Source of the DNA: Spiroplasma apis B31
GTDB taxonomy: Bacteria > Bacillota_I > Bacilli_A > Mycoplasmatales > Mycoplasmataceae
Assembly: GCF_000500935.1 (NCBI RefSeq)
Contig: NC_022998.1
Coordinates: 372,001-436,000, forward strand
Reading direction: 5' to 3'
Length of the DNA stretch: 64,000 nt
In this document: piece after piece, positions 31,524 to 63,007 of the stretch
Position numbering within the stretch: the stretch's first letter is position 1
Layout of the letters: every line of letters begins with the position of its first letter
Notes under the pieces: generated by a model
Told to the model about the DNA's origin: nothing
The model's input: only the letters and a program-made list of their open reading frames with translations
The model's database searches: none
Program-made: the position numbers and the translations under genes

Positions 31524-32081
31524 ATGCAAGTAAATGATTTAAGACCAGGAAGCACGTTTTTATATGAAGGTAATATTTTTGTTGTTTTAGAAAATTCATT
31601 TTCTAAAACAGGAAGACAACAAGGTAAAGTAACTGTCAAGGTTAAAAACCTAAGATCAGGGGCTAGAGTTGAACTAACATTCACCGGTGGTGATAAAGTC
31701 GATAAAGCTATGATTGAAAAGAAAGATATGCAATTCCTTTACAATGATGGAACCAATTGTGTATTGATGGACACAGAAACTTATGACCAAGTTGAAATAC
31801 CTTCTAAAAAATTAACTTGAGAGTTAAAATTCTTAACAGACGGAACAATGGTTAAATTAACAGAATATGAAGGAGAAGTGCTAGGTATTTCTATTCCTGA
31901 AAAACTAGAACTTACTATTATTGAAGCTGAACCAGCCGTAAAGGGTGATACAACTAGTGGTGCCCAAAAAAAGGCAAAACTTGAAACAGGTTTAGAAATA
32001 CAAGTTCCGCTATTTATTAAAAATGGAGAAAAAATAATTGTTAATACTAATGACGGTAAATATTCAGGAAGAGCTAATTAG
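31524..32081 (+). CDS. efp: Elongation factor P
   Basis: EF-P relieves ribosome stalling at Pro stretches. The 185-residue product begins MQVNDLRPGSTFLYEGNIFVVLE and has the three beta-barrel domains with KVTVKVKNLRSGARVELTF and AKLETGLEIQVPLFIKNGEKI. In the tip loop the usual KPGKG is replaced by KTGRQQGK, so the position that is normally modified Lys holds Arg31. One TGA Trp codon at 31818. It is followed by an Asp23-like gene, as in many Firmicutes. Confidence 0.96.
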
Positions 32082-32100
32082 CAACTAAGGGGTAAAATTG

Positions 32101-32394
32101 ATGTATATTGTAATGGAAAGAAATACAAGAGGAAATCTTGAAATAGATGAAAAAATACTTAAAAAAATTATTGAGTATGTTGTAACGAATAATGTAAACA
32201 CTCCAGTTAAAGTAGAAGCTCGTGTTAACTTGCATTACGATAATATATTGTTCATTTTAGTAAAAATTTACACAGACTCAATTGACAAATTATCAACAAG
32301 TGAGAAAAAGTTAAGCTCCCTAATATTTGACTCAATGGATAAAACTTTATCAATAAGACCTAAAAACGTGGCTTTTGCCTATATAAAACGTTAA
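32101..32394 (+). CDS. Asp23/Gls24-like small protein
   Basis: The 97-residue product contains GNLEIDEKILKKIIEYVV, VKVEARVNLHYDNILFILVKIYTDS and a C-terminal helix, the pattern of Asp23/Gls24 (YqhY-like) proteins. In Firmicutes these genes often follow efp, which supports the call. TTG at 32098 is an alternative start one codon upstream; ATG 32101 is preferred with AAGGGG in front. The role of the family is unclear; YqhY is tied to lipid synthesis in Bacillus. Confidence 0.65.
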   Translation: MYIVMERNTRGNLEIDEKILKKIIEYVVTNNVNTPVKVEARVNLHYDNILFILVKIYTDSIDKLSTSEKKLSSLIFDSMDKTLSIRPKNVAFAYIKR

Positions 32395-32404
32395 TTTTCT
32401 ATTT

Positions 32405-32429
32405 AAAACAAGCTTAGCTTGTTTTTTTT
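32405..32429 (+). terminator. Rho-independent terminator
   Basis: AAAACAAGC and GCTTGTTTT pair around TTA, followed by T residues. Confidence 0.85.
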
Positions 32430-32481
32430 CTTTTCTAAAAAATTTTTATTTTATAAAAGAAAAATACAAATCTCCAAAAGA

Positions 32482-32510
32482 GTTGATTTTAGTCTTTAAA
32501 TTCACTATAA
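32482..32510 (+). promoter_or_regulatory. Promoter of the first surface operon
   Basis: TTGATT (32482-32487), 17 bases, TATAAC (32505-32510). Transcripts from here would have a 5' leader of about 160 bases before the ATG at 32680. Confidence 0.65.
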
Positions 32511-32541
32511 CAAAGGTAATGAAGTAGATTACTGAAAAGGT

Positions 32542-32601
32542 TAACTAATCAAGACTACTTTGTTTGGTAATTAAACATGTAGTTATCAATAAGATTAGTT
32601 A
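32542..32601 (+). promoter_or_regulatory. Long nested hairpin in the leader of the surface operon
   Basis: Three nested stems can form: TAACTAATC (32542-32550) with GATTAGTTA (32593-32601), GACTAC (32553-32558) with GTAGTT (32579-32584, one G-U pair), and TGTTT (32561-32565) with AAACA (32573-32577). This gives 20 pairs in one 60-base element. It does not run into a T tract, so it is not a terminator. It may be a regulatory leader; no known riboswitch class is recognised. Confidence 0.6.
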
Positions 32602-32679
32602 CTGATATTTGTTAGATTCAAGGTAATCATTCATTTGTAAGGTTATAAATTGAATATCAATATTTAAAGGAGTTTATTT

Positions 32680-34782
32680 ATGAAAAAGCTATTATTATTT
32701 ATAAGCATGATGACATTCTCTTCTTCTGCAGCTGTCACACCTTGTATTTATGTTGCTAATACAACAGACAATAATTTCAAAAACGAAAATATCACACCTG
32801 ATTCAGAAAAAGAAGATGAGAAATCAAAGGAATTAGAAGAAAGCAACCAAGGTTATCAAAAAATACAAGACCTTAAATTGTATACTGATATTGGTTTGAT
32901 AAGTGATTTTAGTGAAGAAGAGATCTTAACTAGCTTTAAGAAAGCAAATCCGGGAGTAAAAGAGAAAGTATATTTGAACTCAATGACTTTAAATAGCGGA
33001 AAAATAACTATAAAAAACTACTCTGGCTTTATTAATATAAAGTTTAGATGTTCTTCTCTTAAAAAAATAATCAACGTTTCATCTATTGGAAGTGTAGAAA
33101 ACATCAAGTCAGAAACCATATTTAATAAACTAATTAAAATGAATAAAAACTTAAGAAATGTAGATATAAATCAAGATTTAAGTCTAGAACTATCTAATAT
33201 ATATGAAGGTGTGTTATCTGCAAAAGGTTACAGTGACAAAGTAAATATAGATTTTAAACCAACTTCATTGGATGGTGTTATTTTAGAAAGAACATTGGAA
33301 TCAAGTATTGGTAGCTTGGATGATAATGTGATCATTAGTAAAGTAATTGAAAAAAATGAAATTCTTAAAAACTATAAAAACCAAGTAATGTTAAACCAAG
33401 ACTCAAAAACTTTAAATAATGTTTCTTTGTACTTAAAAGACATAACTTTCGAAAAGGGTTCTAAATCAGTAATTAATTATTCAATTGATGATATAGCAGC
33501 TATTATCCCGGTAACTAATATAGGAGAAGTGGATAAAGTTGATGAATCAACAATTTTAAGTAAACTAAAAGAAAAAAATCCTTTATTAGATAAATATCTA
33601 CAAGAAAAAAACAAGAGTTTAGTTCTTGAAAAAGAAATCGAGTTAGATAACTCAACATTTCATATTTCCGATTTCGCTTTAAAGGGTAAAATAAACGTAG
33701 TTTATAAATGTAATAAACTAAGCGGAATATTAAAAACAACTGATATTGGTGGAATTGATGACTATGATGATTCAAACGCTAAAGATAAAATTTTGGCAAA
33801 TTTAAAACAAGCTAATCCGTTACTAAAATACATGAAAAGTGATTTTGATATAAATATTTCCAATATTGTTAAAGACAAATTTACTAAGTTAGACTCTAAA
33901 ATTAACACTAGATTTGACCTAAGAATCAAAAATATGACTGGTAACGAAAAAATGAACTTCAAGATTATTAGAAAAGATATTAAAAACATGATACCAAGGG
34001 ATAATCTTAATAAGGTATTTTGAAGAAATAGACAAGATATTATAAACAAAATTAAAGATGTGAATGGTAAAAACTTCGATGAAAATAACCTTAATATAGG
34101 TAATCCAACTTATTCAGAAATAAAACTATCAGCGTTAGATAATTCCTTAAAATATTTTGGAGAAGTTATTGTTAAATTTGTAACAATCTTTTATAAAGAG
34201 GATAACTATAATTTTTCTGATTTTAAAAATACAACTCCTCAAGGTACTAGCTCAAAAACTAAATCAAGAATTTCTTCCTCACCAACTATAGGCTCAAGTC
34301 ATAGAAACGACGATGACGGAGATCAAACTTTCATTGGTGAATATGAATTTCCTTTAACATTAAACGATGTTAAAAGTTTAGCTAAAAAAACTAGCTTGAA
34401 ATTTAAATACTCAATTCAAACTGAAAAAATAAATTCTTCAAAACAAATAGACACTAATCAATATAAACAAGCTCGTAATGAAGTTTTGAGTGTTCCTTTG
34501 AATGATATAAATGGTAATAAAAAAGAATACAAAATGCAAGAATTCAATCCAATAAAAATTCCGTATAGAAAAAGAGCTTGGTACGGTGTTTGTACAAGTA
34601 ATTATGATTCATTAAATTTGAAAACAACTTTTAAAGTTAATTTTTGAAAAGAAAACGGGTCTGACAATAATGAAAAAATAAAGTTTCAAGTACTTGTTTC
34701 TAATCAACTTGATGACTTTACTACATGTGATGATATCGATATTAGTTATAAAATAACTATCGAATCAATAGATATGAGTTAA
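32680..34782 (+). CDS. Secreted repeat protein, surface
   Basis: The 700-residue product begins with an N-terminal signal segment (MKKLLLFISMMTFSSSAAV) and VTPC at Cys22. Repeats of about 70 residues follow near residues 70, 136, 210, 280, 355 and possibly 441, with the core pattern IG, a few acidic residues, then I(L/F)xK(L/I)xxxNPLL, for example IGEVDKVDESTILSKLKEKN. The repeats recall mollicute surface lipoprotein repeats of the lipoprotein-17 type. A Ser/Thr/Asp-rich linker lies at about residues 520-550. TGA Trp at 34021 and 34645. AAAGGAG precedes the start; it is one base ahead of the permease gene, so it belongs to the operon. Confidence 0.8.
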
Positions 34783-34783
34783 T

Positions 34784-37700
34784 ATGAAAAAATCTAACTT
34801 AAGTTGACTAGTAATCAAGTCTGGTTTTAAAAACTCATTTAAAAACCCCTTGCAATTAATTGGGCTTAGTTTTTTAATAGCCATTAGTTTAATTGCTTGT
34901 CTTTTTATGAATGTTGCTTACCAACGGATTGAAAAAAATTATCATAATTTATCAACTCAATCTAATCTAAGAGATTTTATTGTTGATTCTCAAAAAAGCC
35001 CTAAAATATCATTTAACGAAAATGATATTATCGGTGGGGAGACAATTTTAAATTACTCAAATCAAGATTTATATCAACAGTATTTATTAAATGTAATATC
35101 TAACAAAGGTAAAAAGTTTGAAGAAGGTGAAATAAAAGGTAAGAACTTTTTTGATTGATCAAGAACAGAAAGTAGACTATTTACTAATATAAAGAATGGT
35201 GTGACAGAACTTAATATCAAGGGTGTTACCAAAACAAGTATAGTTAAAGTTAATGAACAAAAGGAGTTAGAGGAGCATATAAACGTTGATAAACTAGTGG
35301 TTTATTCAGGTCAAAATTTCTCTAATGATAAAAGTTTAGCTTTGCATCAAATAATAATTCAAGATACATTTGCTAAGAAAAACAATATTTTCTTAGGAGA
35401 TATTATCAGATTAGTACCAGACCAATATGGAAATCAATTATTGGTGAAAAAAGATGTTCATGATTTACCATTCGGAATTGGTAAGGATATAAATGACCCT
35501 ATAAATGGGATAGAAAAATCAGTTTATAAAAGTATAATGTGATTCCAAGTTATCGGAACAGGTTCATCAATTGATTTTGTGTATCCATCTATCAATAATA
35601 CAAAATCATTACCCAATAATTCTAAGGAGATGATTGCCTACCTATCTCCAGAAGTTTTTGGATTAACTTTGGAAAGTATTTCAGAAGAATATTATCTTTA
35701 TAGTTATAATTTTTCAAAAGCTAAACTAGTTGCAAACTCAGAAAGTGAACGTGAAATATATTTTTCAGGTTCTTTTATAGATAGAGAAAAAAACACCATT
35801 GAACAAATTTCTGCTTTTAATAATCAATGAGTTAAGAGTGGTAATATTTCAACTGACAATTTGAAACTTTTTTATTCAAATAAAGACCCTTCGTATAAAT
35901 TTTTCTCAAGAGTAACAATCTTGAATAATGTTTTATATATTTATAAAGTATTATCAACTGTTACAACGGTTATTATTAGTTTGGTTTGTTTGTTTGTTAC
36001 TGTTTTACTTATCAAAAAGCAACTCGCAGATACAAAAAGTAAGATGGGAACATTTAAAGCTTTGGGTTGCAGCAATATGAACCTAATAAATTTTTTCTTG
36101 ATTACACCAATCATAGTCGCTTTGGGTGGTTTTATAATTGCTTATTTAATGATGGTTGGACTCCAAGAAGTATTTGTAAATGCCTTTTCGAGTTATTTCA
36201 ATATAAGTTATGGAAAATTTACTTATTGTGCCGAATATGCCCCAGTAATCTTATTGGGGGCAATAGTGATTTTGGTTTTAATTTCTTTTTATAACGCATT
36301 TCTTGTTTTGAATAATAAAGCCATCGTTTTACTTGTTGGAGATTCATCACAAAAACTTTCTTGACTTGATAGGTTTTATAAAGGATTCTATAAAAAATCA
36401 AGTAAAAGCGCAAAACTACATGCTGCGCTAATGATTAGTTCTAAGGTTAAAGTGTTAGGTTCAACGTTGATTCTACTTATCTCGACAATCTTGATTTCAT
36501 TTTCTGTAATGTTACCAACAATAGTTTCAAATAATAAAAAAGAATCATTTAAAGGTTTAAATTATCAAGATATTGTTGAATATACAAACCCAATTGCAAA
36601 TAACCCATCGACTTTTTTGAAAACATATAACCCGAACAAAAAAGATGACTGAAGTTATTTAAATGGTAAGAATATTGTTGAAGACTTTAGTGAGTCAAAT
36701 AAGAAAAAACAAAAATATATAACATCTTATCCTTTGATCGATATCGAAGGCAAACCAACTTATGATTTCAATAAAATATTAAAAGATTTAATAGTTGGTG
36801 ATGTTAGTCGAAATTATTATTCATATAATATACCAATTGTTGAAAGTAACCCTGATTCTGAACTGGTGTTAAACGAATTATCAAAAAATAATTACGCTAA
36901 CTGAAAAAACTTATCAATCAGGTATTTAGAACTCTTGGACAATATTTCTATACCAGATTCTAATAATTTCCCTGGACCTTATAAAGCAATAGCGTCGATA
37001 CTTAATCAATGAAGTGACTATTCTGAATTAGTGAATATTGTTTATGAAAAATCAAATGAAGTAAAAGATACTATTGATCCAAAATATAAAAAACTAGCAG
37101 GTATTGCACTTTCTCAAAAGTTGATAAACTTTTATAAAAAAAGCATAAATGCATTACCTTTAAAAGTTAACTCTAACTTTATAAAAGATGGCGCATTGAG
37201 TGCAGAGTTGCTAGAAAAAATTGATTACAATACTCAAATTCTGACTATTGACGATTTTGATGTTATCAATAAGGAAGTTAAAACACCATTCAAATTTGCA
37301 TCTACTGAAGATGTTGGTTTGTTGATTGATAATGCAAACACTAAATGAACAAAACTCTTGAAAGATTTCTTAAACGATTTCTCCTCAAAAACTAGTGAGT
37401 TATCATTTCAGGGAAAACCTATTTCAAATACAGATTTTGAGAATCTAAATATCGATGAGTTACAAGAAATCAATACATATTTGGTACTCTGATATTGAAT
37501 TCATTTTGAAGGTAAGATAGGAACCTCTTTTATTCAATCTATATATCAAAAAGAAACAAGTCAAGTTCAAGACAATATGAAAAAAGCACTTCTAAAAAAT
37601 GAAGATTACAACATCACCTATAATGTTGTTCCTTTTGATAAGGAAAACGACGAGTTAGGAACTATGTTGCATGGTGTTTTTGAAGTTGGTAATAGTAAAA

Positions 37701-39220
37701 ATAATATAAATATTCTTGGTTTAGAACCTTCAACTAAGGCAGTCTCACTAATAGATTCACAAAATAGAGACATCAAAGAAAACTTATTTAAAAATCTTAA
37801 TGATAATTATAAGGAGTACATACCAATAATTGTTAATCAAACTTTTGCTAAAAAACTCTCAGTTAATGTGAAAGATAATTTAGAAATAACTATAAATCAA
37901 AAGTTAATCACAAATAATTCAAATGAACCTATTTCACTTGAAGCGGTAAAAATGGGTATTCAAAATAAGAATGGTGATAATCAATATTTAACAGAGTATA
38001 ACAAAAATTATTATGCATATAACGAGACAGATACTGGGTGGAGTACTAATGAATCTATAAAAACAGCAACTATTAGTGATAAAAGTATAGCTCCAAAATC
38101 ACTATCTGAAATTAGTAATCAAACCGAAATACAAGAAGCTGCTTCTAAATCAAATATAAAATCATCGCTATTAAGTAGCCAAAAGAAATTTGTTGTAGTT
38201 GGTATACAAGATGGATATGGTGAACCTAAATCATGAATTTCTAATGAAAATGCCAATAAAATCCTTGGATATGATGAAGCTGAAAAGTTCTTTTTCAATA
38301 ATTTCTTCATAAATGAATGATATAAAAAAGATGCTTTGAAAAACTTTGACAATATCGATATATTTGAAGATCTAACTCCTGAAAAATGAATTAATTGACT
38401 AACTTATTTCGATGATAATGTTATTTCTTGAAGAAACGGTATCTATAACACAGACGCTAAAAATCCTTATGATGACTTTTGTAAAACTTTCTTGAATTTA
38501 CCAGAAGACTATAATGACAAAAACGGTTATAAAGAAGGGGCTTCAATTCTTTGAAAAATCTTTAAAAACCAATACCCCGTTTTCAATTACAAGTATACTT
38601 TGAATAACGGTTTCAATGATGAAAGGATAAATACTTCAAGAACACAAGAGTTTGGTGATTATAGTACTCAGGGACTTATTGGAAAAGAAACTACCATCTA
38701 TAACAATGATGGTACTAAAACATCAAGTTTTAAAGAGGGTTATCAGAAACCCGGTGTTCTAGAAACTATCTCCTTAAATGATCAAAAAGCAAAATTAGAC
38801 CAACTTGGAATTTTACTTGAAATGATGACTTACATTCTTAGTTTTATATCATTATTCATTTCGACAATTATAATTCTCTTAACAACTATTTTAATAATTA
38901 ACGAAAACTCACAATTTATTGCAACTATGAAAGTACTAGGTTATACAAATAGATACGTAGTTGGACAAGTTTTGTGATTATACTTAGCACCTTTAACATT
39001 CACAATATTTACTGGATTTGCGATTGCTTGGTTCTCAATTTACTCGGTGATAAATGCAATTTCAAGTAATTCCTTTATTGTAATACCATTTAACTTTTAT
39101 TATCTATGACCAATTTTAGTAATTGTGATAGTAATGTCTATTTATTTGTTTACCGTTCTATTTGGGTATAGACAAATTTCAAGGGTTAATCCAACATTAG
39201 TGTTGCAGATAAATAATTAG
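34784..39220 (+). CDS. Giant FtsX/MacB-type ABC permease, 1478 residues
   Basis: One open frame with about 18 TGA Trp codons and no TAA or TAG before 39218. It has an N-terminal membrane helix (about residues 22-45), a large outside domain, a first FtsX-type domain near residues 385-520 (contains TVIISLVCLFVTVLLIKKQLADTK and KMGTFKALGCSN), a second membrane helix near 550-575, a second outside domain of about 760 residues and a C-terminal FtsX domain from about 1340 (ATMKVLGYTNRYVVGQVLW). The ATMKVLGYT and TFKALGCS segments are typical coupling regions. No ATPase is encoded beside it. It is flanked by a secreted protein and a lipoprotein in one operon. Confidence 0.85.
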
Positions 39221-39229
39221 GAGGAAATT

Positions 39230-41191
39230 ATGAAAAAAATATTATTACTTTTTACATCAATGACTTTGATTGCTACACCACTAAATATTGTGACTAGTTG
39301 TGGTACAAAAAATGACTATAATGGTCTCTTTGGTGATGAAAATGAGAAAAATGACGGAAGCTATATAAAGGAATCATCAAAAAAAGTAGTTGACAAGTTT
39401 AATGCTGAGTCTTCTAAGTTATTTACTGTCAATTCTAAAGTAGAGGGTGTATCAGAAGCTGGTTTAAAAGCAACTCTTTTGGAGGAATTGAAAGAAAAAA
39501 TTATTCTAGAAGATAATAAGTTTCATTTAGAAATTGTTGAAGATAACTCATTCACTAAGCCTATAATGAAAGGTTATGAAGCAAATGGTACAACAAAAAA
39601 AGAAATAAAAATTGAATATGGGAAAGCTAGAGTTAATTTATACTATTTAGATACACTCCTAAAAACTAATTCAATCCAATGATCAACTGGGTATTTTGAT
39701 ATCTATATGAGTATGATAAATCTAATAAATGGTAATAGTTTAGAGACTGTTGGTAATTACAACTCGGCAAAAGTTGATTTAGCTATATTTTCTTTCAATA
39801 TTGGTGGGTCAGTAACTAAGATAACTCTTGGAACATTGTATAGTTTCATTGAGTTACTCGATAGATTGTCATCATTCGAAATACCATTGGTGGATGAAAT
39901 TATGAAACCGATAAAAAGCATTTCTAATATGAATTTGAATAATTTAACAGAAGTTGATCCATCTTCTGTGGCCGGTAAAAATAAATATGAGTCTTTCGAA
40001 AATGAATTCAAAGACCACTTGAAGCAATTTGTTAAAAAATTAGGCGATCTATTGATATCTTTTGGCCTTCCTGAAGAGATCGAAATACCTAATATAAAAG
40101 GGGATAACAAAACTAAAGTAAAAATTAAAGACCTTCTAAATATTAATCTGATAGATACTCTTGGTTTAGATTTATCTTCATTAGGTAATGAAGATATGAA
40201 ACTAGAAATTGGAAATACTAATGGAAAGAATAATTTGAGTCTTATGAATGTACTAATTAGTGCCGCACCTAATATGTGTGAACTATTGAAATACTTATTT
40301 TCAACCGATAATTATAAAAAAAGTCATAATTTTGTATATAACATGATAAGTTATTTTTTTAATGATATGAGTGATGCATTAAAACTTATAAATAAAAAAA
40401 ATAACGAAGATAATTTGAGTGTAGCAAGAGCTAAGACAAATATTGATAGTTTATTATTTAATGCACTGATAGGTTTTAATAAAAATAAAAGGGGTGTTAA
40501 TGGAAACTGGTACCTTAAACTTGAATATTCATATAAATTACAAGGTCTTGAGACATTCAAAATAATTAATGATTACTTAGATAGTTTATTAAATAAGGTT
40601 CTTCTTAATCCTACAAATATTGCTTTAAACATCTTTAATTCTATAATCACCCCTAAGAAATCAGGCGCTACTAATATTGAAGACTCAATTTTATCACCTA
40701 ACATGAATGTGAACTTTATTGAAGATGTCGATGCAATAAAATTAATCGATGAATCTGATCTAAGTGATTTCATTAAAGGAATAATTAAACCATTTGCAGG
40801 AACAATTAGAGAAAAAGTCTTGTCAACCGCTAATGAAGCTTTAAACAAAATAATTCCTGAGTTAAAAATGTCTACACTACTAAATAAAAGTTTAAAACAA
40901 ATATTAGTGTCATTAGGAGTTCCCCAAACTGATTTAGATAACTCTAACGTTGAATTATTAAAAGGAGAGTATTCTTTCTTGTTTTATTCAAAAGAAAATG
41001 AAAACTGAGTCCCAACCAATTATGGTCTTTCAACTTCTGATTTCCAGAAATACAATAGTTTTAAACTGAAATTTAGAAATTGTCAATTTAAAGTATCTTA
41101 CATGATAGATGGAGAAGTATCATACACAACAATGACAAAAGATGATATTACTTTTGATTTAATTTTCTCTGATGAAGATGGAAAAAAATAA
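39230..41191 (+). CDS. Surface lipoprotein, possible MOLPALP family
   Basis: The 653-residue product starts with a lipoprotein signal peptide MKKILLLFTSMTLIATPLNI and lipobox VTSC (Cys24). The mature part is helical, with Leu/Ile/Asn/Lys-rich stretches and no membrane segments. The layout resembles the large mollicute paralogous lipoproteins named MOLPALP in annotations, and the minus-strand gene at 52709-55030 is similar in plan. TGA Trp at 39680 and 41006. AGGAGG precedes the start, nine bases after the permease stop. It is the last gene of the surface operon. Confidence 0.8.
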
Positions 41192-41197
41192 AACTTT

Positions 41198-41227
41198 AAA
41201 AACTCTCTTTATAAAGAGAGTTTTTTA
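41198..41227 (+). terminator. Strong terminator of the first surface operon
   Basis: AAAACTCTCTTTAT and its complement form a near-perfect palindrome with a T run after it. Confidence 0.9.
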
Positions 41228-41358
41228 TTTTAAAATTAAAGAAACTTAAATAACTATGTTCAATTTATGTTGGTTATAAGAATTCATTTAGTATAAAATA
41301 ATATAATAAGCTATAGCTTCAAACCTAACTTAACACGGAAAATCGACCTAAAATAGTG

Positions 41359-41364
41359 TATAAT
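41359..41364 (+). promoter_or_regulatory. -10 box for the gene at 41399
   Basis: TATAAT lies 34 bases before the ATG; no convincing -35 box with normal spacing. AGGAGG precedes the start. Confidence 0.5.
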
Positions 41365-41398
41365 AATATTGTTTATAAATAATTAGGAGGAATAAGGC

Positions 41399-43207
41399 AT
41401 GGCAGCAACAAAAAAATCGGCATCAAAAAAAACTAATAATTCAGAATCTGTAGAAAGTTTTGGATATATATTTCAACCATTTAGTCCAAAGTCTTTAGCT
41501 CTTATTCATAAATATAATTTACAAACTGATGAGAGTTATAAAAAATTAATAACTTCATTTGAAAGAATTGATTCTTTACCTGATGAAGATCCAAGAAAAA
41601 TAAATTTGGTACAACTATGAGAAGCTGAATTTAACAGACTGTTTAAATTCTTTTGAGAAAATTATACAAGAGGTCAAAAAAAATCTACAGATGGAATTTC
41701 TGGTTGAAAAGAACGTCTAGATGTTAAACCACTTGCTACGTCTCCTGCTGAAAAAAGAAAAGACTTTATGTCTAGACTTTCTCCAGGAGCAAACAATTCT
41801 GGAAGATTAACAAAAGAAGAAATTATGAGTAGAGCTGGTTATCAATCAAAAGTAACTAGTGAACAATTCAATTTTACAGCAACTCCTAAAACTGGTAAAA
41901 ACTTACACGAAATCGAGAATATTTTAAATGATGTAACTATGCAAGTTGAAGAAGAAGAAAAAATCATCGAGCCCGAAAGCATTTTGGATAATTCATTTAA
42001 AAACAATCAAAATGTCGAAGAAAACAAATTTGTTGATGAAGAGACCGAGATAATGACGCAAGAAGCTAAGCCAGATCCGAATTTATTAGCATTTGTTAAT
42101 GGTAGTTTAGATAGTGAAAATAAATCAGAAGAGACAAAAACTGAGTCAAAAGTAACTGAAAATAATGCTAATGGTTATGTTGCTAATGAAAATATGTCAA
42201 GAGAAGAGTTTAACATTAGAAATAATATTGAAGCTGTGGAACCAATTAGAGATGAAAATGAAAAAGATCTCTCAGCACTAGAACTTGGAATTGATTTCTT
42301 TCAAAACTATTCTGAAATTCAACCAAATTCTATTCATACACTAAAAAAGAAAAATCAGCCTATCGCATATAATGAAAAGGATGAACTTATAAAACCTGAT
42401 AAAAGAAACATTATCCCAAAAGATGGATTTGAAGTTTTTATTAATACCGAAAGAAATTCTATTGATGGGAAACAAAATTTTGATATCAAAACAGGTGAAT
42501 CATCAAAACCTTATCACGAAATAAAACCAATTGGTCATTACAACATGAATTATGATTATATGAAAAGACCTTCAATGCAAGAGTTACTTGAGTCAAATAG
42601 ACGAGAAGGTAAAGCTATTGATGAAATGACTGAAAAAATTGAATATCTTCGTGAACTTCGTAACGAGAGACGTCATAGAATTAATATGATGAAAGTTGAG
42701 AGAGCAAACAGTTACATAGTAGCGCGTGCTAGAAGACTTGCTGAGGAACGTGAATTAAGAAGAATTAAAAAACGTGACGAGTTAAACTTAAAAGCAATTG
42801 AAAAAGCAGATCGATTAAGAAGGATGCAAGAACGCCAAAAACTTATTGAGTTAATGCGTGAGCGACAAATGAGAAGATCTGAAGAAAAAAGAGTTGCAAC
42901 CGTCTTAAAACTTGAACGTGATAGAAGAGTAGAACGAGACGCTAAATATAGATCAGAAATCGCATCTATAGATGCTGAAATAAGACGTGAACAAGAGTTA
43001 ATTAAAAACACTGAGTTAAAAATGAAAGCTTACTTTACAAGAGTTCACGATGAAAAGTTATTTGATGAATCATTAAAATTAGCTAAAAAAGCTAAGAAAC
43101 TTTCAAGATTAGATGATGAAGAAGAAAGACTATTACAAATTGAGGAAAGAAAAAGAAGAGAAAAAGTTGAAAGAATTAGCAAAAAATTCAACGAAAATCT
43201 TAAATAG
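41399..43207 (+). CDS. Arg/Glu-rich coiled-coil protein, 602 residues
   Basis: The product begins MAATKKSASKKTNNSES, then a globular segment with several Trp encoded by TGA (41618, 41657, 41705) up to about residue 120, an acidic disordered stretch (about 150-260) and a long Arg/Glu/Leu coiled coil from about residue 380 to the end (RELRNERRHRINMMKVERA, RRIKKRDELNLKAIEKADR). No signal or membrane segment. It is followed by a terminator and another charged coiled-coil gene. Function unknown; a cytoskeletal or nucleic-acid binding role is possible only as a guess. Confidence 0.8.
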
Positions 43208-46115: not shown

Positions 46116-46745
46116 ATGGAATGTTGTAATTGTGATACAAAATATATTCAAAGTTGTAATTGCGTGATTCTATCGGATTTATGTGATATTGAACTATGTT
46201 GTTGATGCTGCTTGCATTCTATTATTCAAAACTTTAAGAAAACAACAAATTACGAAGAAAAATTAAACACATATATTAATGATCTAATAAAAAGCAACGA
46301 GCATGGAAAATATATTAAAAAATTATTCAAACAATTATCAAAGGATATGGAAATAAATCAAAAATCTTATAATAAATTATTATCAAAAAATTATTTAAAC
46401 TCTATCGATAAGAATTTAGGGTCTCTAAATTTAGCGAGAGAAGTTGATAATGATTTTGGATTTAAGATTAGAGCTCAGTTAAATGAATGAGAATATTTAA
46501 TAGAACTAATTAACTTATATATAGATTTTGGACCAGAAGAAATCAAAAAAGAAATTCACATAGAGTTTCAAAACTGAATATCTTTTTTATTTAAGTTAAT
46601 TGGTGACATTGCGGTTCTATTTATACGTACAACCGTAGTTGATGAAAATGCAAGTTATATTGCAACTACCAAGGAAAAACTTATTGATATAGAGGAAAAC
46701 CTTCACAAAACGGAGCTAAACTTAGGTGCTAAAACTATTATATAA
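46116..46745 (+). CDS. Protein with ten cysteines in its first 32 residues
   Basis: The 209-residue product begins MECCNCDTKYIQSCNCV and has Cys at 3, 4, 6, 14, 16, 23, 28, 29, 31 and 32, with Trp30 (TGA) inside a CCWCC cluster. The rest is helical and charged, with no Cys-rich pattern. There is no signal peptide, so the cluster is likely cytoplasmic and could bind zinc or iron-sulfur; this is inference. AAAGGAG precedes ATG 46116. Mollicute cytoplasmic proteins are generally poor in Cys, which makes this stand out. Family unknown. Confidence 0.75.
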
Positions 46746-52682: not shown

Positions 52683-52712
52683 AAAAACTTGTACAAAAGT
52701 ACAAGTTTTTAA
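52681..52712. terminator. Bidirectional terminator between convergent genes
   Basis: AAAAACTTGTAC and GTACAAGTTTTT pair around AAAA with A and T runs on both sides. The stem overlaps the stop codon region of both the plus-strand gene (ends 52682) and the minus-strand gene (ends 52709). Confidence 0.9.
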
Positions 52713-55030
52713 TTTATTTTTAAAATCGATTCTAGTTCCCAAGCTTCCATATAATTCATTTGTTTAATTTTAACTGCATATTTGGTTACTTTTTTTGTTC
52801 TTGGATCGGTATATATAATATTGTAATTGATCTTTGCATCATTATTATTTTCAAATCCATCATGTTCTATTCCATCGATTATGAAGTTGTTTTCACTTAA
52901 ATATGATTTAAAATTGTCGTTGATATAATTTCGTTTATTCTCTTGCATTAACTTTAATGAATCAATAGCATCGTTTACGATTTTTTTCACATTTTCATCT
53001 GCAAAAATCTTTTCTGCTCCACCCAAAATAGAGTTGCCTTCAAATGTATTATTTTTTTGCCTATAACCTAAAAGGTACATTGCAGCTTTAGTTCCTTTTA
53101 AATCACCATCAGGACTTGTATATATTAGTCCTTTATATTGAGTTGTGTACATCGCTGCTTCTAAAGAAGATAGGCCAGTTTTAAAAATCTTATCATTCTC
53201 TTTTAATTCGATAGTTTTTTCTGTAAGCAATTTGCAAATACTTTCAATTCCTTCTTTGATTTTATCGGCACTTTTTTGAGTTTTCTCATTATTTAGTGCA
53301 TATGTAGAAAATTCTTCATACAATTTTTTAAGGTAATCGGATATAGTCATGCCATCCATTATGGTAGCGTTAAATAAATTGCTTAGATTAAAGTTTTTAT
53401 TATTTATTTCTAAATTTAATAACTCTTTGAATAATGTTGAATCTTCGTCATAAAGAGCACTAAAAGGTTTAACCATTTTTTCATTATTTTGACTATAATC
53501 TAAATTTATAGAAGATGATAATGATTTTATAAGCGGGAATAAACCACTAGTATTAGTATTCTGAGTAATATTATCAACCACTTGGGTTATAAGATAACCA
53601 GGATTTAAACTTTTTAATCCTTCTGCTAGTTTTGGGTCAAGTAAACTACCAACTAACCCATTTCCTAGACCAGTTATTAATATACCTAATGGTGATTGAA
53701 CTCCTTGTTTTTTTATTTTTTCTAGTAAATTAGAAATACTCAATAAATCTCATTTTTTACCTTTTATCTCTATATCGCTTCCACCTGAGTAAATAATTAA
53801 ATTTAATAGCTTCTGCATTTGAATTCCATTTGGGTTATCAACGTTACTTGTTGCGATTGCTAAGTTTTTAATCACTTTATTAAATGAAAAACTCTCAAAA
53901 GGTTTATTTCGTAAGTTTTCTAGATAAACGCTATTACTTTCATTTGTAGCATATAAATGTTTTGAATCAGTTGGGGTGTAATCTTCAAAATCAATAGAAC
54001 CAATTATTTGTAAAAACCCACCGATTATGAAAAATAAATCATCGATATGAGAAATAATATTTAGAAATTTTACATCATTTATATTTTTAATTAACTCTAA
54101 AGCTGAATCGCTTATATTATTTAGAAAATCATTATCACCTACAATATTTTTATATTTATTTGACTCTATTTTTCCTTTACCTGTTAAATCAACAAGTATG
54201 TTGTTTATTCTTATTACTATTGAGTTTTGTATGTCTTTATTTGTTAATTTTTCTCTTTGTGGAAAATCATTGAACATTTCGTTATTTATGTAGTTTTCAA
54301 ACTCTCTGAAATTTCTAAATATTTTGAATAATCCTGTTATTACACTTAAAATAATATTCCCAATCTCTTTATTTTCGATTGCTTTTAAAAATGGTACATT
54401 CAAAAAGTTATCCATTATTCCTTTTAATAGCCCAGATTTAGATAAAAAGGTAATTGCTTTAGCAAGTGAACCTGCATTCTTACTTATGTTAGTCAAAATA
54501 TCATCAGGAATAGGGAGGTTAACATTACCATCTTTTACTATAAGATTAGCTAAAATTGGAAGTGCTCCTTCTAAAAAACCAGCTAAGCGAGTATTTATAC
54601 CACCACTAGATTTAATAGCGGTTAGGAAAATTAATCCATAATCAATAACTTTATCTATGGAAGTATTAGCATTCTTACCTCCAAGTGTTAAATTTGAATT
54701 TTCTCCCAATTTTTTTATGCTATCTGTGTTAAATGAACTTTTGAAATAAGATTTACTTAATGACTCCATAGTTGTTTGTTTTGTTTCACCAAAAGCAGTA
54801 TTCATATCTTTCGCTTTACTAGGTAGAAGAATACTTTGTAAATAGTCATTGTCTAATCCAGAAGAATCATTAACTACAGCACTTCGTAGAAGTGTACTAG
54901 AAACATTAACAAGATTTGATATTTTGTTGGCAATATATTGTTTTTCATAATTAACCAATGTACACCCTGTAACTGAAACTGTTGATGTTCCAATTGATAT
55001 ACATGACAATATAATAAGTAATTTTTTCAT
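52709..55030 (-). CDS. Large surface lipoprotein, possible MOLPALP family
   Basis: One 773-residue frame once the TGA at 53752-53750 is read as Trp (IEIKGKK-W-DLL). It begins with a lipoprotein signal peptide MKKLLIILSCISIGTSTVS and lipobox SVTGC (Cys23). The mature part is helical, Leu/Ile/Asn/Lys-rich, without membrane segments. The plan is close to the lipoprotein at 39230-41191. AAAGAGGTTG precedes the ATG on the minus strand, and an AT-rich divergent promoter region separates it from the permease gene at 55157. Confidence 0.8.
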
Positions 55031-55156: not shown

Positions 55157-58100
55157 ATGTTTAAGAAAAGAAAATCTACACTAGCATTATATTTAAAACA
55201 AGGTTTCAAAGGAATATTTAAATTTAGAATACAATTTTTAATAATAATAATTTTAGGATTTATATCAACTTTTGTTCTAACTATTTCACTTTCTCTATCA
55301 CAGAGATTAACAAATGAGTATGACAAAGTTATGAATAAAATGGACCGTTTTGATTATATTTCTAGTAAAGATGTCGGTGTTAAGGCCAATGGTAAAAAAG
55401 ATGCGAAATTTGTACCAATGATGGACTTCATTAATTTTCAATCATTAACAAAAACTTTTGGTGATGGTAGTTCATATAATAGTCTTGATTCTGGAGTAAA
55501 TTACAATTTCAATATAAGTAATTTTGACTTCGGTATGTATGAAAACGATGAGAATGTTAAAAGTCTAATCAATGATTATAAATCAACTTATAGAGAAACT
55601 TTTTTAACAAAAGGTTTTTCTGATAATGAAATAATTAAAAATAATTATTTTGGAATGGTTAAATCAGAAGATTTTTTAGAGAGTTTTTTTGATTATAAAT
55701 ATGATGGTTTGAATGGTAATACAATATACCCACCAAATCAAGATGGTTGAACTAATCATATAGATGGTAGTTGAATGTACCGTGAATTTGATAACAAACC
55801 AGAACCAATAAAAAATTATTTTATGAATTCTTCAGAAGAACTTAAAAGATTGTTATTAAATGATCTATTTAAATATGATGGCAAAGATGGTATTGGTAGT
55901 GATAAAAAAACCGCACCATATTTGATAAACTCTCCATTTTTCCAATTAAAGCAAAAATCTTTAATCAAGTTTGAAGACTTTTCTGTGAATGGTTACAATG
56001 AAGAAAATTTGAATCCCTATGATATTTATCTATATACTTCTTTAAAAACTGTTTTAAGTCAAATATTTTATATGTCTTGTGATTATATAAAATATTATGT
56101 TAACCAAGCAATTTCAACTGCTGAAGAAAATACTTTAGAAAGTGTCGAAGAAAATTTTAATCAAAAATATAAAGAAGCTGCTGGTTTTGGGTGAAAAGAC
56201 AATAACGATACCATTGCGAATGTGCTTTTTGCATTTATATTTGGTAGACCTTATAATGTAGAAAAAAGCAAAAATAGCACAAAAATTAATAAAATGGTAG
56301 TTAATAGAGATAACAAACCATGAATACAAACTTTAAATCTAAATGAATTGACTGTTTTAAATTACAAGGGTTTAGTGTTACAAGAGGCAAAAGATCTTTA
56401 TGAATTTGGTGCGAGAGGTTCGCTTAATCAATTTTTAGTTCAATTAGATTTAGAAGGTAGAGTTGCTGGAAGTGTTGGAACAACAAATCAATCTATAATA
56501 CTTAAAAATGAAAGCCCAAATGAAACTTTAAATGAGGTATTGTCATATGATACAAGTTTTAATAGTTTTACAGATAGAAATATGATCACAAGAAGTAAAG
56601 TAAGTACACCAAAACTTTATTACTTGCGTAATTAATTGATTGGGCAAGCTAGTGATTTAAATATTGAAGAAAGAGCTGAGTTTCTTTTTCAAGATAATTT
56701 AACTGAAATAAGATATCGTATGGTAGTTTTGGATCCTCTTTGAAGTGAACGATTAACAATTTACCAAGGAAGAAAACCAAGAGATAAAAATGAAGTTATT
56801 ATAAATAGTCAATTTGCAAAAGCACAACACATAAAATTAGGACAAAATCTAACTATTGGTGGTGGTGAATTTATTGTAAGTGGTTTAGCATCAGATCCTC
56901 TTAGTTATTTTCCAATTAGTGATACTCTAGAAGCGATACCTAATAGTGCTAAAACAGCGATTGTTTATGGAAATGATGCGACTTTTGAAAGTGTTATTTC
57001 AAAAGATTTTCAAAAACAAATTACTAAAACTTTGTACACCTTAGTAACAAACAAATCAAACGAAAAAAATTTGGATAAAAACATGTCTAGATTCGTAGCT
57101 AGCAAATTCAATAACCCATCTGAAATCGTTAGAAGTTTATCAACTTTAAACAAATTGAGCAACGATGAGGATGTAAAATTCAATAGCTCTGAAAGCAGTG
57201 AGGAATTCACTAAATTTGCAAGTTCACCATTTGCCTATAATTGAGAACTAACTCCAAAAGTTGTAGAAATATTCAAGTTATGTTCTATAATTTTAAGCAG
57301 TGTTGTTATTATAATTGCCTTAGTTGCAACTGGTATTACAGTTAAAAAGACTATTGAAATGAATTCAAGTGAAATAGGAATTTTAAAATCATTAGGTGCA
57401 AAAGCTAGTGAAATTTCATTATCATATGTTTGATATGGGATCTTTATAATGATTTTTGTTATACCAGTAGCTTGATTAACTGCTGCATTTACCCAAGAAA
57501 CCATTGCCCGACTCTTTTTAAGTTATATGGGTGGTGTATATTGACAAGTTATTTTTAATTGACAATCATTCTTGATTGCATTTCTATTGTTTGGATTGTT
57601 GGTTGGATTAGTGTCATACCTAGTAGCTTACATTTTAACTAGAAAACCAGCCCTTACAATTATGGATAAAAAAGACGTTGTCAAACGTATAAAATTTCTT
57701 GATAATCTTAAATTTAAACTTACAAAAAGAACTAAGTTCACAACAAGATTTAGTATTGAGTTAGCTGCTTCTGGATTTTCAAAAACCTTATTGACAGGCG
57801 CTATGGTGTTTCTATCAGCGTTTATAGTTTCTGGTTGTTTAACACTTCTTGGTGTCGTTGATGTTGCACTAAGCAATTATTACAAAAATGTAAAATACGC
57901 GAATAATATTCAAAATGTTGAGTCAATTGGTAATGCACCGATGTCAAAAACATCTTTATCTGCTTGGCAGGGAGTGGAAGAATATGATAAATATTTATAT
58001 GATTCAAAAGGTATTTTTGGAGATGAAGTAAAATCTATTTCAGAAGCACCATCAAATTTAGGTGGAGTTTCAGATACTTCTGTATTACCACATTTAACCC

Positions 58101-60442
58101 TAAATGTTAAGGATGGTAAATTAGAATCTGAATGACTTTATCAAACTTTATCAAACTCCATCAATAACAACCAAAATGAAGACAATAACAGCCTAGTATC
58201 AATTATTGGTAGCATATTTGGTAATAATATCAATCAACTTTTAGGAAAAGGTATATCTCTTGGAGAAATACAAAAAACATTAGATTGAATTATTCACTCT
58301 AATGAATTCAAAAGTGATGAATTTATGGCGAGAAAAGAAAAGGTAAAAACTGCATCAGATTTATTGTCTAGTACATTTCCACCAATAATTGCTCAACTTA
58401 TGAATACTAGCGCAAAAGGAGAAGGTACTTGAAAAGAGCAAATTCTAGATGTTATTGTTTCTCAAACACCTTCATACATTAAAAACTTCTTTAACAAGTC
58501 AGAAAACAGACAAAATCAATTCGAATTTGGTTGAACAATTAACAATTATATTCCAACTGTAGATAATCTATATACAAAAATTAATGCTGAGACTAATAAT
58601 AATAAATTATCTATTATTGGTCTTCAATCAACACAAAATGCATACAACTTTTCTAATATTAAAAATAATATATTTTTAAGTGAGTATAAAGCAAGAAAAT
58701 TGCAAGATGTCATCTATGGCAAAGAAAATCAAAATATTTATATTGATAATTTTAAAGTTTACGATAAAGATAACGGGGAATTAACAATCCCAACTATTAC
58801 AAATAGTCAAGCAAAATTAATATATCCTTTTAAAGATGATTTATTAGATAAACTAACTTTCAATGCAGATCGTTTAGTATTGTCTGAAGATCAAACCAAT
58901 ATACCTAATGAAGCTTGAATGTATGATGATAGAGATTATCAAAAATTCTTAAATCATGACATAAAAGAGGATAAAGGTTGACTCAGAGCTAGTGCTCTTT
59001 CAGCTAATAAGATGACTTATGCACCTATTTTCAATTACAATAATGGTACTAAAAAAGGGTTCGAAAAATATGATGGTGTTATTCCTAACTCTTTGGTTAA
59101 AGATTCTTATGGATTCTTTAATTTACAAAGTGAATATGACGAAAATGAACATGAAACTCTTAAAGCTGAGATAAGACCTTATTATCAATATGACAATATA
59201 ACATTATTCATACCTAAATCAAAAGCAACTAGATTTGAAGCTATTAAAAATTTAGGAAATAAAGATACTTCTGAATGGTTTGGTTATATAGATAAAAATG
59301 CTGTTCCAAAAGACACAGTTAAACAGTGGGAAAATATCGATCCCGCAACAAAAAGCAATGATTATGTTTGAATAAGACCATACTCTTTGTATTACGATGT
59401 AAGGGGTAAATATGAGAAACCAAAAGCAAACCTTACAGGTATCGAATTATCACAATTAACAGATTCTTACAAAAACTTTTTGTGACAATCATTTAAATCT
59501 CAAAATAATCCATTTGCCATCGCAAACAAAACTATGGATTGAAACAAAATATCTGGGGGTAATATAAAAAAAATTAACCTTAAATCAGTTGGAGACCTTA
59601 AAGTTTATGGTAATAACTTAATCATCGCTGATCAAAATATCGTTAACTTAGTACATGGATATTCTATTGACAAGTACTTGCCATTCAATTATCAATATGA
59701 GGATAAAAACTCACAAAATAATGGTAGTTACACAGAAAATGGAGTAAAAGTTAATACATATGACTATGTTAATCCTAATAATCTTATAAATAATGAGAGT
59801 TCAAACAATTTAATATATGGAACAAACGATAAACAAAGAAGCATAAGACCGAATCTTTGATACAATGGAGTTTATTCTAATGCAAAAGAACCTTATTTCT
59901 TAACAACTCAAGCATCTTTCTCAAGAAATCCAAAAATTGGTGAAGATACTATAAACGGTGATAGCACTTATAAACTATGGGTTGAAACGACAGATACCGA
60001 GTTCTTATCACAACAACAAGCACTTATTGACCAAATATCTAAACTGATTATTTCAATAGGTACCTTATTTATATCTATGATAATTATTATTTCTTCGTTA
60101 GCAACAACATTGATTGCTGATCTTTATGTAAACCAATACAAAAAGTTCATGATCATAATGAAATCGCTTGGATACTCTAACTGAAAAATAATCAAATACT
60201 CGTTTGGATTTGTAAGTTTATTCTCTATGATTACTTATGTAATGGGTGTTTTAACAAGTTATTTAGTGATATTCGGAATAACAACATATATAAATAATAA
60301 TTTCATTGCAATTCCATTTGGTTACACTTGGTGGGCACCGTTTGTCTCAACAATATTAGTCGTTGGTATGTTTATTTTATCAACAATTATAACAACCAGA
60401 AAGATTCGTAAGGAACCTCCAAGTTCATTAATGACGGGATAA
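55157..60442 (+). pseudogene. Giant FtsX/MacB-type ABC permease, split by one TAA
   Basis: A 1761-codon frame is open except for TAA at 56633-56635 (codon 493), which follows PKLYYLRN and precedes LIGQASDLNIEERAEF. All other internal stops are TGA. Domains: N-terminal membrane helix (residues 20-45), outside domain, first FtsX region near 708-830 (MNSSEIGILKSLGAKASEI), another helix near 870-905, second outside domain, and C-terminal FtsX region from about 1625 (MIIMKSLGYSNWKIIKYSFG). The 3' part keeps frame, codon use and TGA Trp codons, so the break is recent or is a sequence error. The first 492 residues alone would have only one membrane helix. No ribosome-binding site is seen at 56636 for restart. 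Confidence 0.8.
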
Positions 60443-60495: not shown

Positions 60496-60552
60496 ATGAA
60501 AATTATATGCTTTTAATAAAGTTGTGATAATATAACTTTTAAGGTGATTAGT

Positions 60553-61206
60553 GTGAAAAAGTATAATCTAAATTTAACATTGAAATTTATACTCCTTTTA
60601 GGAATTATTTTTAATATTTTAGTTATTTTACTTTTAAGTGATCTTCCTTATATTTTTGCGATTTATATTTTTGCAATTGGTTTCATTTGATTTATTCAAA
60701 TTATGTTTTGAATATTAATTTTTAAAAGATTCAAGCTACTAAAGGTTTACAAAAACACATATATAGAATATAAAAAATCTTTGAACGAAGTCATCTTGTT
60801 GTTGTTAAACCTATTGCTATGATTTACATTATTCTTTATGAATATCAAAGACTCTTATAATAATTACAGTAAGGTCTTGATTAATAGATTACCAGTAAAT
60901 ATCTCTTTGATTGTCTATTTTTTAATTAGAATTAAATTATATGAATATTACAAAAACTTTGAATTGAAAGAAATTTGAACTTATGAATTTAATTTTGCAA
61001 TTGAAAAGAATTTTAAAGACTATAAAAATGAAAACCATAGTCATTTTTTAAGTACATACATTCATTTTTTGTTATTGAAAGAAATTTTTATTTTGCGTTT
61101 CAATATTTTTAAAGGTAATAACATCTACAAATATTTTTTTACTAGCATAACCAAATTAAATAACATCTCTAGGGGTGACAAATTTAAACCTTCATATATT
61201 AATTAA
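60553..61206 (+). CDS. Integral membrane protein, 217 residues
   Basis: This gene is hidden by four TGA Trp codons (in GFIWFIQ, MFWILI, LLLWFTL and KEIWTYE). It starts with GTG at 60553, preceded by AAGGTGAT, and ends TAA at 61204. The product begins VKKYNLNLTLKFILLLGIIFNIL and has about four membrane helices in its first 130 residues, then a Lys/Asn/Phe-rich tail. The ABC transporter gene starts 31 bases later, so the two are probably cotranscribed. It may be an accessory subunit; no family recognised. Confidence 0.75.
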
Positions 61207-61237
61207 CAAGAAAAAAATATTTCGAAGGAGGTTTAAT

Positions 61238-63007
61238 ATGCTTAATAAAGTAATCGAAGTAAAAAACTTAAATAAAAAATTCAAATCAGGCTATGGTATA
61301 TTTGATATTAATTTCACAGTTGAATATGGAAAAGTTTTTGGTTATTTAGGACCTAACGGTGCTGGTAAATCCACTACAATAAGAAGTTTGATGGGATTTA
61401 TAAAAGCAGATAGTGGGAGCTCAAATATAACATATAAAAATAAAAATGAAGAGTTAATTAATGATATTGTTTCATATGATTCTTGAGTTGATTCAAACAA
61501 AGTACAAAGAAATCTAGGTTATGTTCCTGGAGAAATATCATTCCCAATTCATATGACAGGAATTGATTTGTTAAAACAAATATTTAGATTAAGAAACATG
61601 TCAGATTGAAATGATGTTAGAAAACTTATTGACTATTGAGAGTTTAATCCCAATATGAAAATCAAAAAAATGTCTAAGGGAATGAAACAAAAAGTAGCAT
61701 TAGTTATTGCATGAATGCATAATCCAGACATAATTGTTTTGGATGAACCAACAACTGGACTTGATCCTTTAATGCAAGACAAGTTTGTTAAGTTAGTTCA
61801 AAAATCCAAAGAAGAAGGTAAAGCAATCATTTTATCATCACATATTTTCTCAGAAATAGAAAAGACATGTGATTATGTTGCAATAATAAAAAGAGGAAAA
61901 ATAGTTTCTACTGTTGATGTCAAAGATATTCAATATAATGAAGAAAAAACTTATGAAATAAAATTCAAAAATGAAGTAGATGAACAAAAAATAATCTCTC
62001 ATAAATGAAAAGTAAAAAGTTTTGAAAATAATATAATGTTTGTTGTCGTAGAAAATAAGGATATCAATGATTTTATCCAAACTATTTCACATAATGATAT
62101 TGAGTTTATCAAAGAGCATCCTTTAGATCTTGAACAATATTTTATGAAATATTACCAAAATGAAATTGAAAAGGACGTTATTGAGAAATTAGATAATATA
62201 GAACTAAAGTCGGGTGCCAAAAAATCATTTGTTTCATTCGAACTTATAAAAGATACTTCAAGAAAATCATTTTGGCTATGATTCTTTATGACTATAATAC
62301 CAACTATAATGTCTATTGTTGTGTTTTCGGTTATGTTTAACAATCAGTCGGTTTTAGATAAGGTTGCAAGCGGGGTTAGTTGAGAAATTATTATAAATGG
62401 GGCAATTACATCTTTGATTACAAGCACAACAGGAATTGCGTATTTATTGATTTTAGTATATCTTCTTGTAACTGGTAATTCCTTAGTAGCGGGTGAAGTT
62501 GAAAAAGGGACAATGGTAAATTTACTTACAACTAACCAATCTAGAAAAAGTGTTCTATTAACAAAAATGTTAACTTACATATCATTTTTAGTTCTAAGTA
62601 TATTTATTCTGTTCATAACTTCTATTAGTACAATTGGAATTTTAGGAAAAGGTTCAGAAATTAATTTCGGATTAATAGGGATGTATTTCATTGGTTTATT
62701 TCTAATAATTTTATTGATGTCTTCAATCAGTTTTCTTTCAAGTTGTTATTTTAATAAATCAGCTTACTCTTTAGCAACAGCTGGAGGAATAGCTATTATA
62801 TTTTATGTATTATATTTCGTAAGTAAAATTAATGAATCAGTAGAATTTTTAAAATACTTCTCATTGAATACTCTATTTACAATTGATTACACTGAAGTTG
62901 GTCAAGTTGGAAAGTATCTTGGACAATATTTATCTATGTTTATCCTTTCAATTGGTTTATATACTACTTCTTACTTCGTTTTCACTAAAAAAGACTTACC
63001 ATTATAA
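61238..63007 (+). CDS. ABC-2 transporter with ATPase fused to permease
   Basis: A 589-residue frame that joins a nucleotide-binding domain and an ABC-2 permease. The ATPase part (residues 1 to about 300) has Walker A GPNGAGKST (about 38), signature MSKGMKQKVAL (about 145, in place of LSGGQ) and Walker B IIVLDEPTTGLDP (about 165), followed by the switch His in SSHIF. The permease part starts near residue 345 (FWLWFFMTIIPTIMSIVVF) and has about six helices, with GEVEKGTMVNLLTTNQSRKSVLLTKML typical of ABC-2. TGA Trp codons at several sites join the pieces. ATG 61238 is preferred for its AAGGAGG. Substrate unknown. Confidence 0.88.

Follow-up and report, generated by a model that had tools for sequence, protein, structure and literature searches.

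A three-gene unit of Spiroplasma apis as a candidate type VII ABC machine with dedicated extracellular partners and an unlinked ATPase

Spiroplasma apis is a honeybee-associated bacterium with a single chromosome (C1) of 1,160,554 bp, which is read with genetic code 4. In a stretch of 64,000 nucleotides of this chromosome (C1:372001-436000; hereafter the window) three consecutive genes encode a repeat protein (gene 1), a giant permease (gene 2) and a lipoprotein (gene 3). With a probability of roughly 0.6, these genes together form one type VII ATP-binding cassette (ABC) machine, in which genes 1 and 3 would be dedicated extracellular partners of the permease and an orphan ATPase encoded far away would be the motor. 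Giant FtsX permeases are already known in mollicutes; what is new is the proposed sharing of one orphan ATPase together with partners specific to each permease clade. In the literature searched, these Spiroplasma operons were not the subject of any study.

The giant permease and its two partners

A preliminary description of the window, made from the sequence alone, had placed the three genes with gaps of one and nine bases, and this layout is confirmed: the three Open Reading Frames (ORFs) are intact under code 4, with 700, 1478 and 653 amino acids (aa), and are separated by 1 base (34782/34784) and 9 bases (39220/39230). Gene 2 was described there as a giant FtsX-type permease with two large outside domains and no ATPase beside it. 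In agreement, it contains two FtsX domains (PF02687; 73.5 bits against a cut-off of 25.5). Hydropathy gives eight hydrophobic segments, at residue 23, then 392, 434, 488 and 563, then 1354, 1396 and 1441, which predicts a 2 x (1+3) pattern of transmembrane (TM) segments, each half consisting of TM1, a large outside domain and TM2-4. The predicted outside domains span residues ~42-391 (~350 aa) and ~582-1353 (~770 aa). The chain contains no nucleotide-binding domain (NBD), and none of the adjoining genes encodes an ATPase.

The second membrane module was modelled with AlphaFold 2 (AF2) from nine orthologues. The confidence of the model is low (mean predicted local distance difference test, pLDDT, 59; predicted template modelling score, pTM, 0.39), and only its membrane part was used. 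In the VIA comparison, the 40 top listed entries are all type VII proteins (MacB superfamily), with Z from 15.8 to 9.5 and an aligned length of ~150-190 residues for most of them, after which Z falls to 7.7 with type IV exporters. The top matches are YtrEF (Z 15.8, 191 residues, 4.0 A), Streptococcus pneumoniae 5xu1 (15.5), YbbP (15.1) and MacB (15.0), and BceB, HrtB, FtsX and LolC/E are also among the type VII matches. The best single matches in Foldseek are LolCDE chains (E 0.008), some of them with lipoprotein, and the best profile match in PDB is LolF, at a weak E of 0.0024. Since both structure searches recognise the membrane part, gene 2 is, as judged from sequence and model, two MacB/LolC-type halves fused into one polypeptide; this single chain is by itself the equivalent of the LolC-LolE pair or of the MacB dimer. 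The FtsX domain, the TM layout of each half and the fold of the membrane module all place it among type VII permeases.

The upstream protein had been called repetitive, and six degenerate repeat units of 63-87 aa are indeed found in residues 63-504 of gene 1, with a mean pairwise score of 35.2 versus 4.3 (sd 2.3) for shuffled units. In its C-terminal part, C638 and C683 are invariant among orthologues. We also considered gene 1 as a lipoprotein, with Cys26 (the Cys of VTPC) as the lipidated residue, and rejected this reading, because among nine orthologues this cysteine occurs in this species only. For the same reason gene 1 is predicted to be a secreted or N-terminally anchored repeat ectodomain. 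It matches no HlyD/MacA-type family in Pfam or NCBIfam. A profile search of 60 genomes of the family also found weaker paralogues and scattered repeat matches elsewhere, so the repeat is not private to the three-gene operon. Gene 3 was correctly named a lipoprotein: its predicted lipobox (S23-C24) is invariant among orthologues. It belongs to no family in Pfam, while NCBIfam gives just short lipoprotein signal models.

When profiles of genes 1 and 3 were searched in the 60 family genomes, full-length matches (>700 bits) to both were found in exactly the same 10 genomes, at 11 loci each and nowhere else. Nine loci read as complete triads of gene 1, permease and gene 3, with gaps of 0-29 bases on the 5' side of the permease and of -14 to 64 bases on its 3' side. 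In one genome (G014) all three genes carry stops or frameshifts, so the unit decays together, and in another (G117) 4.5 kb separate gene 1 from gene 3, which matches the length of the permease, the intervening stretch being unread. Judging from these sequences, the three genes are inherited as one unit. The preliminary description had let its idea fall if related genomes had no conserved neighbourhood; the neighbourhood is conserved, and this supports the part of that idea in which a surface machine is made up of an oversized permease together with surface proteins of its own, encoded next to it. In one relative (G003), the three-gene unit is tandemly duplicated ~12 kb apart (L106 and L108; C1:291888 and 303608 of that genome).

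The orphan ATPase and the other giant permeases

A search for an orphan LolD/MacB-like ATPase had been proposed, and such a gene is present near the origin (C1:17560-18591), ~390 kb from the three-gene unit in S. apis. It is one among the ABC ATPases of S. apis, has no permease nearby, and its relatives in PDB are MJ0796, BceA, MacB and LolD. By sequence reading it is flanked by FtsH- and Hsp33-like genes to one side and by Dus- and LysS-like genes to the other. All same-genus genomes (18 of 18) have one orthologue each, with an identity of 71-81%, and 141 of 148 genomes of the order carry an orthologue. Among 20 inspected genomes of other families, the orthologue directly adjoins an FtsX permease in 15, mostly giants of >1000 aa, and in one further outgroup genome the permease lies two genes away. 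Within the own family, the ATPase is an orphan in nearly all inspected genomes; G076 has a giant permease two genes away. In several outgroups an FtsH-like gene is followed by permease and ATPase, and the FtsH-like neighbourhood is as in Spiroplasma. The simplest reading of this synteny is that the ATPase stayed near the origin, lost its old permease neighbour and may now serve permeases encoded elsewhere. It seems to be the missing subunit, common to several giant permease machines.

The N-terminal extension of the orphan ATPase varies in length (L217, C1:9000-27000; L222-L226): it amounts to ~110 aa in S. apis, and some other genera of the family have extensions of several hundred aa, in proteins of 489-587 aa. 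The ABC-2 exporter genes that lie after loci B and E (see below) were also considered as the missing ATPase and rejected, for they are of ABC-2/BcrA type and have membrane parts of their own.

S. apis has five giant permeases, namely A (gene 2) and B in the window, C at C1:306416, E at 758452 and F at 989617; a further permease, D, is small (437 aa, 10-TM) and has its own ATPase. In 19 same-genus genomes we collected 96 giants, 3-7 per genome, which BLAST clustering divides into six groups: A (10), B (22), C (17), E (15), F (19, one per genome) and G (13). In a tree built from the C-terminal modules, each of the groups A, B, C, E and F forms one clade, and the position of G is uncertain. The 1+3, 1+3 topology is predicted by hydropathy in all six groups. 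Slight variations aside, both modules in every one of these groups have retained the coupling-helix motif K.LGY, which the outgroup permeases share.

We counted a lipoprotein gene as adjoining when it is co-directional with the permease and within 100 bp of it. By this definition, an adjoining lipoprotein is found for 9 of 10 permeases in A, 17 of 17 in C and 9 of 15 in E, and for none in F (0/19), G (0/13) or B (0/22). In clade B, a lipoprotein-like gene of 770-890 aa is divergently placed at 15 of the 22 loci (12 by a strict automatic rule). In two further genomes, the lipoprotein family of clade E lies downstream rather than upstream of the permease, and the pair has therefore outlived a change of gene order. 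Altogether 35 of the 96 giants have an adjoining lipoprotein, versus 22 of 176 ordinary polytopic membrane genes of the same loci (Fisher p = 8e-6, with loci of related genomes not independent); lipoproteins make up 122 of the 1200 genes in the surveyed loci (10%). Within each clade, all members of a partner family (A_up, A_dn, C_up, C_dn, E_up, B_molpalp) find each other, and between clades the partner profiles have in common at most a signal peptide or a short stretch. As judged from these profiles, four clades have lipoprotein partners of their own that are mutually unrelated and two clades have none, which indicates a real pairing of permease and lipoprotein that is specific and not general. 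The expectation that a genome survey would find a lipoprotein always beside a giant permease is therefore not borne out, and we rejected it on the basis of clades F and G.

All 19 genomes of the genus have a single clade F permease (L031; C1:989617-993501 in S. apis). A lipoprotein partner is always lacking, and a FakA-like gene and a small Cys-rich protein are often close by. The clade F permease may be the core member of the giant set.

Proposed mechanism, known systems and alternatives

In type VII proteins, a cytoplasmic dimer binds ATP, whereupon the stalk helices close as a bundle and the outside domains move, and this mechanotransmission does not require transport across the membrane (PMC5985334, PMC12646458). 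By analogy, two copies of the orphan ATPase would bind the coupling helices of gene 2, and binding and hydrolysis of ATP would close and open the stalks, so that both giant ectodomains move at the cell surface. On these ectodomains, the products of genes 3 and 1 would make up a dedicated effector assembly outside the cell, in analogy to EnvC on FtsX and TesA on YbbP. That ATPase would likewise drive the cell's remaining giant permeases, several of which have a partner of their own. We further consider, at slightly less than even odds, a modular platform in which one shared, unlinked ATPase serves 3-7 exchangeable giant permeases per Spiroplasma cell, several with unrelated lipoprotein effectors; such a platform would be one motor with many tool heads, and its units would be gained, lost and duplicated together.

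FtsEX with EnvC, PcsB or RipC resembles the proposed machine in that it acts by mechanotransmission through the permease to a dedicated outside partner and not by transport. FtsX itself, with ~300 aa and 4 TM segments, has to form dimers, and its target is peptidoglycan; gene 2 differs from it with 1478 aa and 8 predicted TM segments, and reaches only 15.8 bits against a cut-off of 250 with the FtsX_actino model of NCBIfam. LolCDE provides the best Foldseek matches of module 2, and the orphan ATPase is LolD-like. LolC and LolE are two separate 4-TM chains encoded in an operon with LolD, and the complex serves general lipoprotein export to the outer membrane, whereas gene 2 is a single chain with 8 predicted TM segments and its candidate ATPase is unlinked. 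Unlike MacAB-TolC, there is no NBD in gene 2 and no MacA/HlyD family in gene 1. YbbAP-TesA of Escherichia coli shares several features with the proposed machine: its type VII permease is one pseudosymmetric chain with two ectodomains of MacB/LolC type, the ATPase is separate, and the 2:1:1 complex includes a dedicated extracytoplasmic partner. The partner is encoded alongside, and its operon is divergent, like the arrangement of clade B (PMC12646458). YbbP differs from gene 2 in having 10 TM segments, not the 8 that hydropathy gives, and far smaller ectodomains (PMC12646458), and gene 2 with its 8 hydrophobic segments accordingly falls outside the 10-TM BceAB / YbbAP type. In YbbAP-TesA, unlike here, the ATPase gene is adjacent, and the partner here is a lipoprotein and not a soluble hydrolase; TesA is a GDSL-type lipid hydrolase, and gene 3 has no match in Pfam to such a family or to any other.

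In mollicutes, a genome of 580,076 bp (G029), which we take to be Mycoplasma genitalium, with permease and ATPase genes that presumably are MG_064/065 and MG_467/468, encodes giants of 1331 and 1783 aa whose predicted 8-TM architecture is the same as in S. apis. G029 differs from S. apis in that the orthologous ATPase is directly adjacent and the unit there holds no partner families of clade A. The minimal cell JCVI-syn3.0 likewise retains FtsX-like permeases (MMSYN1_0034, 0399, 0531 and 0639), so that proteins of this kind are kept even in a minimal mollicute (PMC6629657).

Several points weigh against the proposed machine. An adjoining lipoprotein is absent from clade F (19/19 genomes) and from clade G, so a partner is not a general requirement. 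The link to the ATPase consists of homology and synteny only, and its pairing with the six clades is inferred. The ectodomain models are poor. For the AF2 model of gene 3 (pLDDT 76, pTM 0.69), Foldseek finds nothing at E<=0.001 and VIA nothing over Z 4.7; TULIP and P116 folds are not in its structure-match lists, which excludes nothing for a model of 653 residues.

Under the preliminary description, the permease would handle, extract or display the lipoproteins of the genes beside it. In this Lol-like reading the adjoining lipoprotein is a substrate to be pulled from the membrane, displayed or released. The superfamily includes LolCDE, Foldseek and, weakly, the profile search of PDB point to LolCDE and LolF respectively, and a lipoprotein adjoins clades A, C and E and lies divergently in clade B. 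However, of the many lipoproteins in Spiroplasma each partnered clade has one specific family unrelated to the others, which a general extractor would not require; clades F and G do without, and a mollicute has no outer membrane as destination. A dedicated partner therefore fits better than a general substrate, and we regard a Lol-like handler as rather improbable. The same low standing is given to mere hitch-hiking, in which the lipoprotein would be co-transcribed with an unrelated permease in a variable island of surface genes. The general abundance of lipoproteins in the surveyed loci favours it, as does the finding that 12.5% of the ordinary polytopic genes also have a co-directional lipoprotein within 100 bp, but the excess beside the giants, above all in C and A, is difficult to explain in this way, and so is a partner that is orthologous within its clade, shows exact co-occurrence and survives the order change in clade E.

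The order of genes 1 and 2 recalls macA-macB, gene 1 is N-terminally anchored or secreted, and the orphan ATPase is close to DevA and MacB, all of which would suit a MacAB-like or bacteriocin-export pump with gene 1 as adaptor and the lipoprotein as accessory. Such a pump seems to us very unlikely, given that gene 1 is built of degenerate repeats and matches no HlyD/MacA-type family in Pfam or NCBIfam, that the outer membrane duct is absent, and that the NBD is neither fused nor adjacent. It is unlikely, though less so, that gene 2 is powered by another ATPase or by none. The distance of ~390 kb to the orphan gene leaves room for this, and a second MacB-type ATPase is present at C1:551325-552044; that gene, 36% identical to the orphan, has its own adjacent permease (D), and it is the orthologue of the orphan that adjoins a giant permease in most outgroup families. 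The conservation of both FtsX coupling motifs in the giants is evidence against an ATPase-free protein.

For the type VII machine itself, the task has to be sought outside the usual ones. Spiroplasma is a wall-less mollicute with neither peptidoglycan nor outer membrane, which excludes the usual tasks of the superfamily. Candidate tasks of the effector are lipid or sterol uptake, the handling of surface proteins, or dealing with host molecules. Our guess is that its cargo may be hydrophobic, lipids or sterols, as for YbbAP-TesA or P116 (PMC10023570).

The surroundings of the unit and its meaning in wall-less bacteria

The features of the locus are collected in Table 1. The two hairpins that bracket the three-gene unit are the only terminator-like ones on the + strand within 32000-41700; the total number of such hairpins is about that expected by chance, so they are taken as supportive only.

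Table 1. Features of the three-gene unit, of the second region and of the candidate motor (window positions unless marked C1)
Feature	Position	Strand	Remarks
Terminator-like hairpin	32405..32425	+	upstream of the three-gene unit
Gene 1	32680..34782	+	repeat ectodomain (predicted), A_up family, 700 aa
Six degenerate repeats of gene 1	32866..34191	+	63-87 aa each, aa 63-504
Gene 2	34784..39220	+	giant single-chain permease, predicted type VII ABC, 1478 aa
FtsX module 1	35966..36313 (C1:407966-408313)	+	N-terminal half, coupling-helix motif GTFKALG
FtsX module 2	38834..39193 (C1:410834-411193)	+	C-terminal half, coupling-helix motif ATMKVLGYTN
Gene 3	39230..41191	+	lipoprotein (predicted), A_dn family, 653 aa
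Terminator-like hairpin	41198..41225	.	bidirectional, directly 3' of gene 3
Partner lipoprotein of clade B permease	52709..55030	-	divergent, 773 aa, MOLPALP-like, intact
Clade B giant permease	55157..60442	+	frame interrupted by in-frame TAA 56633-56635 (492 + 1268 aa)
Orphan ATPase	C1:17560-18591		MacB/DevA/LolD-type, near origin, outside the window

A second region of the window had been described as repeating the pairing of lipoprotein and giant permease. A lipoprotein gene does lie beside a giant permease there, but the two are divergent and do not form an operon, and the frame of the permease is interrupted by a TAA. In relatives the clade B permease is intact, with 1646-1920 aa, and the copy in the window is either a recent pseudogene, or two separately translated halves, or the result of a sequencing error. 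The protein of its divergent partner gene scores 54 bits with MOLPALP (TIGR04547), under the cut-off of 65, and is thus MOLPALP-like and not a formal member; 11 of its 14 orthologues match MOLPALP at E<=0.001.

Beyond this permease, at 60544-63007, one gene encodes a 3-TM protein and another an ABC-2 exporter in which ATPase and membrane part are fused; they separate the permease from the gene that in relatives is directly 3' of it. At locus E (C1:756915-758331), an ABC-2 exporter pair also adjoins the giant permease. Past the end of the window, after the second region, are three consecutive lipoprotein genes of 612-622 aa (L032; C1:437365-443378). Between the two regions, the N terminus of a 209-aa ORF (46116-46745) is rich in cysteine; this ORF has no confident family match and may be spurious.

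Giant FtsX-type permeases and large lipoproteins are widespread unknowns of mollicutes. With a likely common motor named and partners assigned clade by clade, genes annotated as unrelated 'hypothetical' ones become a testable system. As wall-less bacteria lack the usual tasks of this superfamily, its machines would have a different task here.

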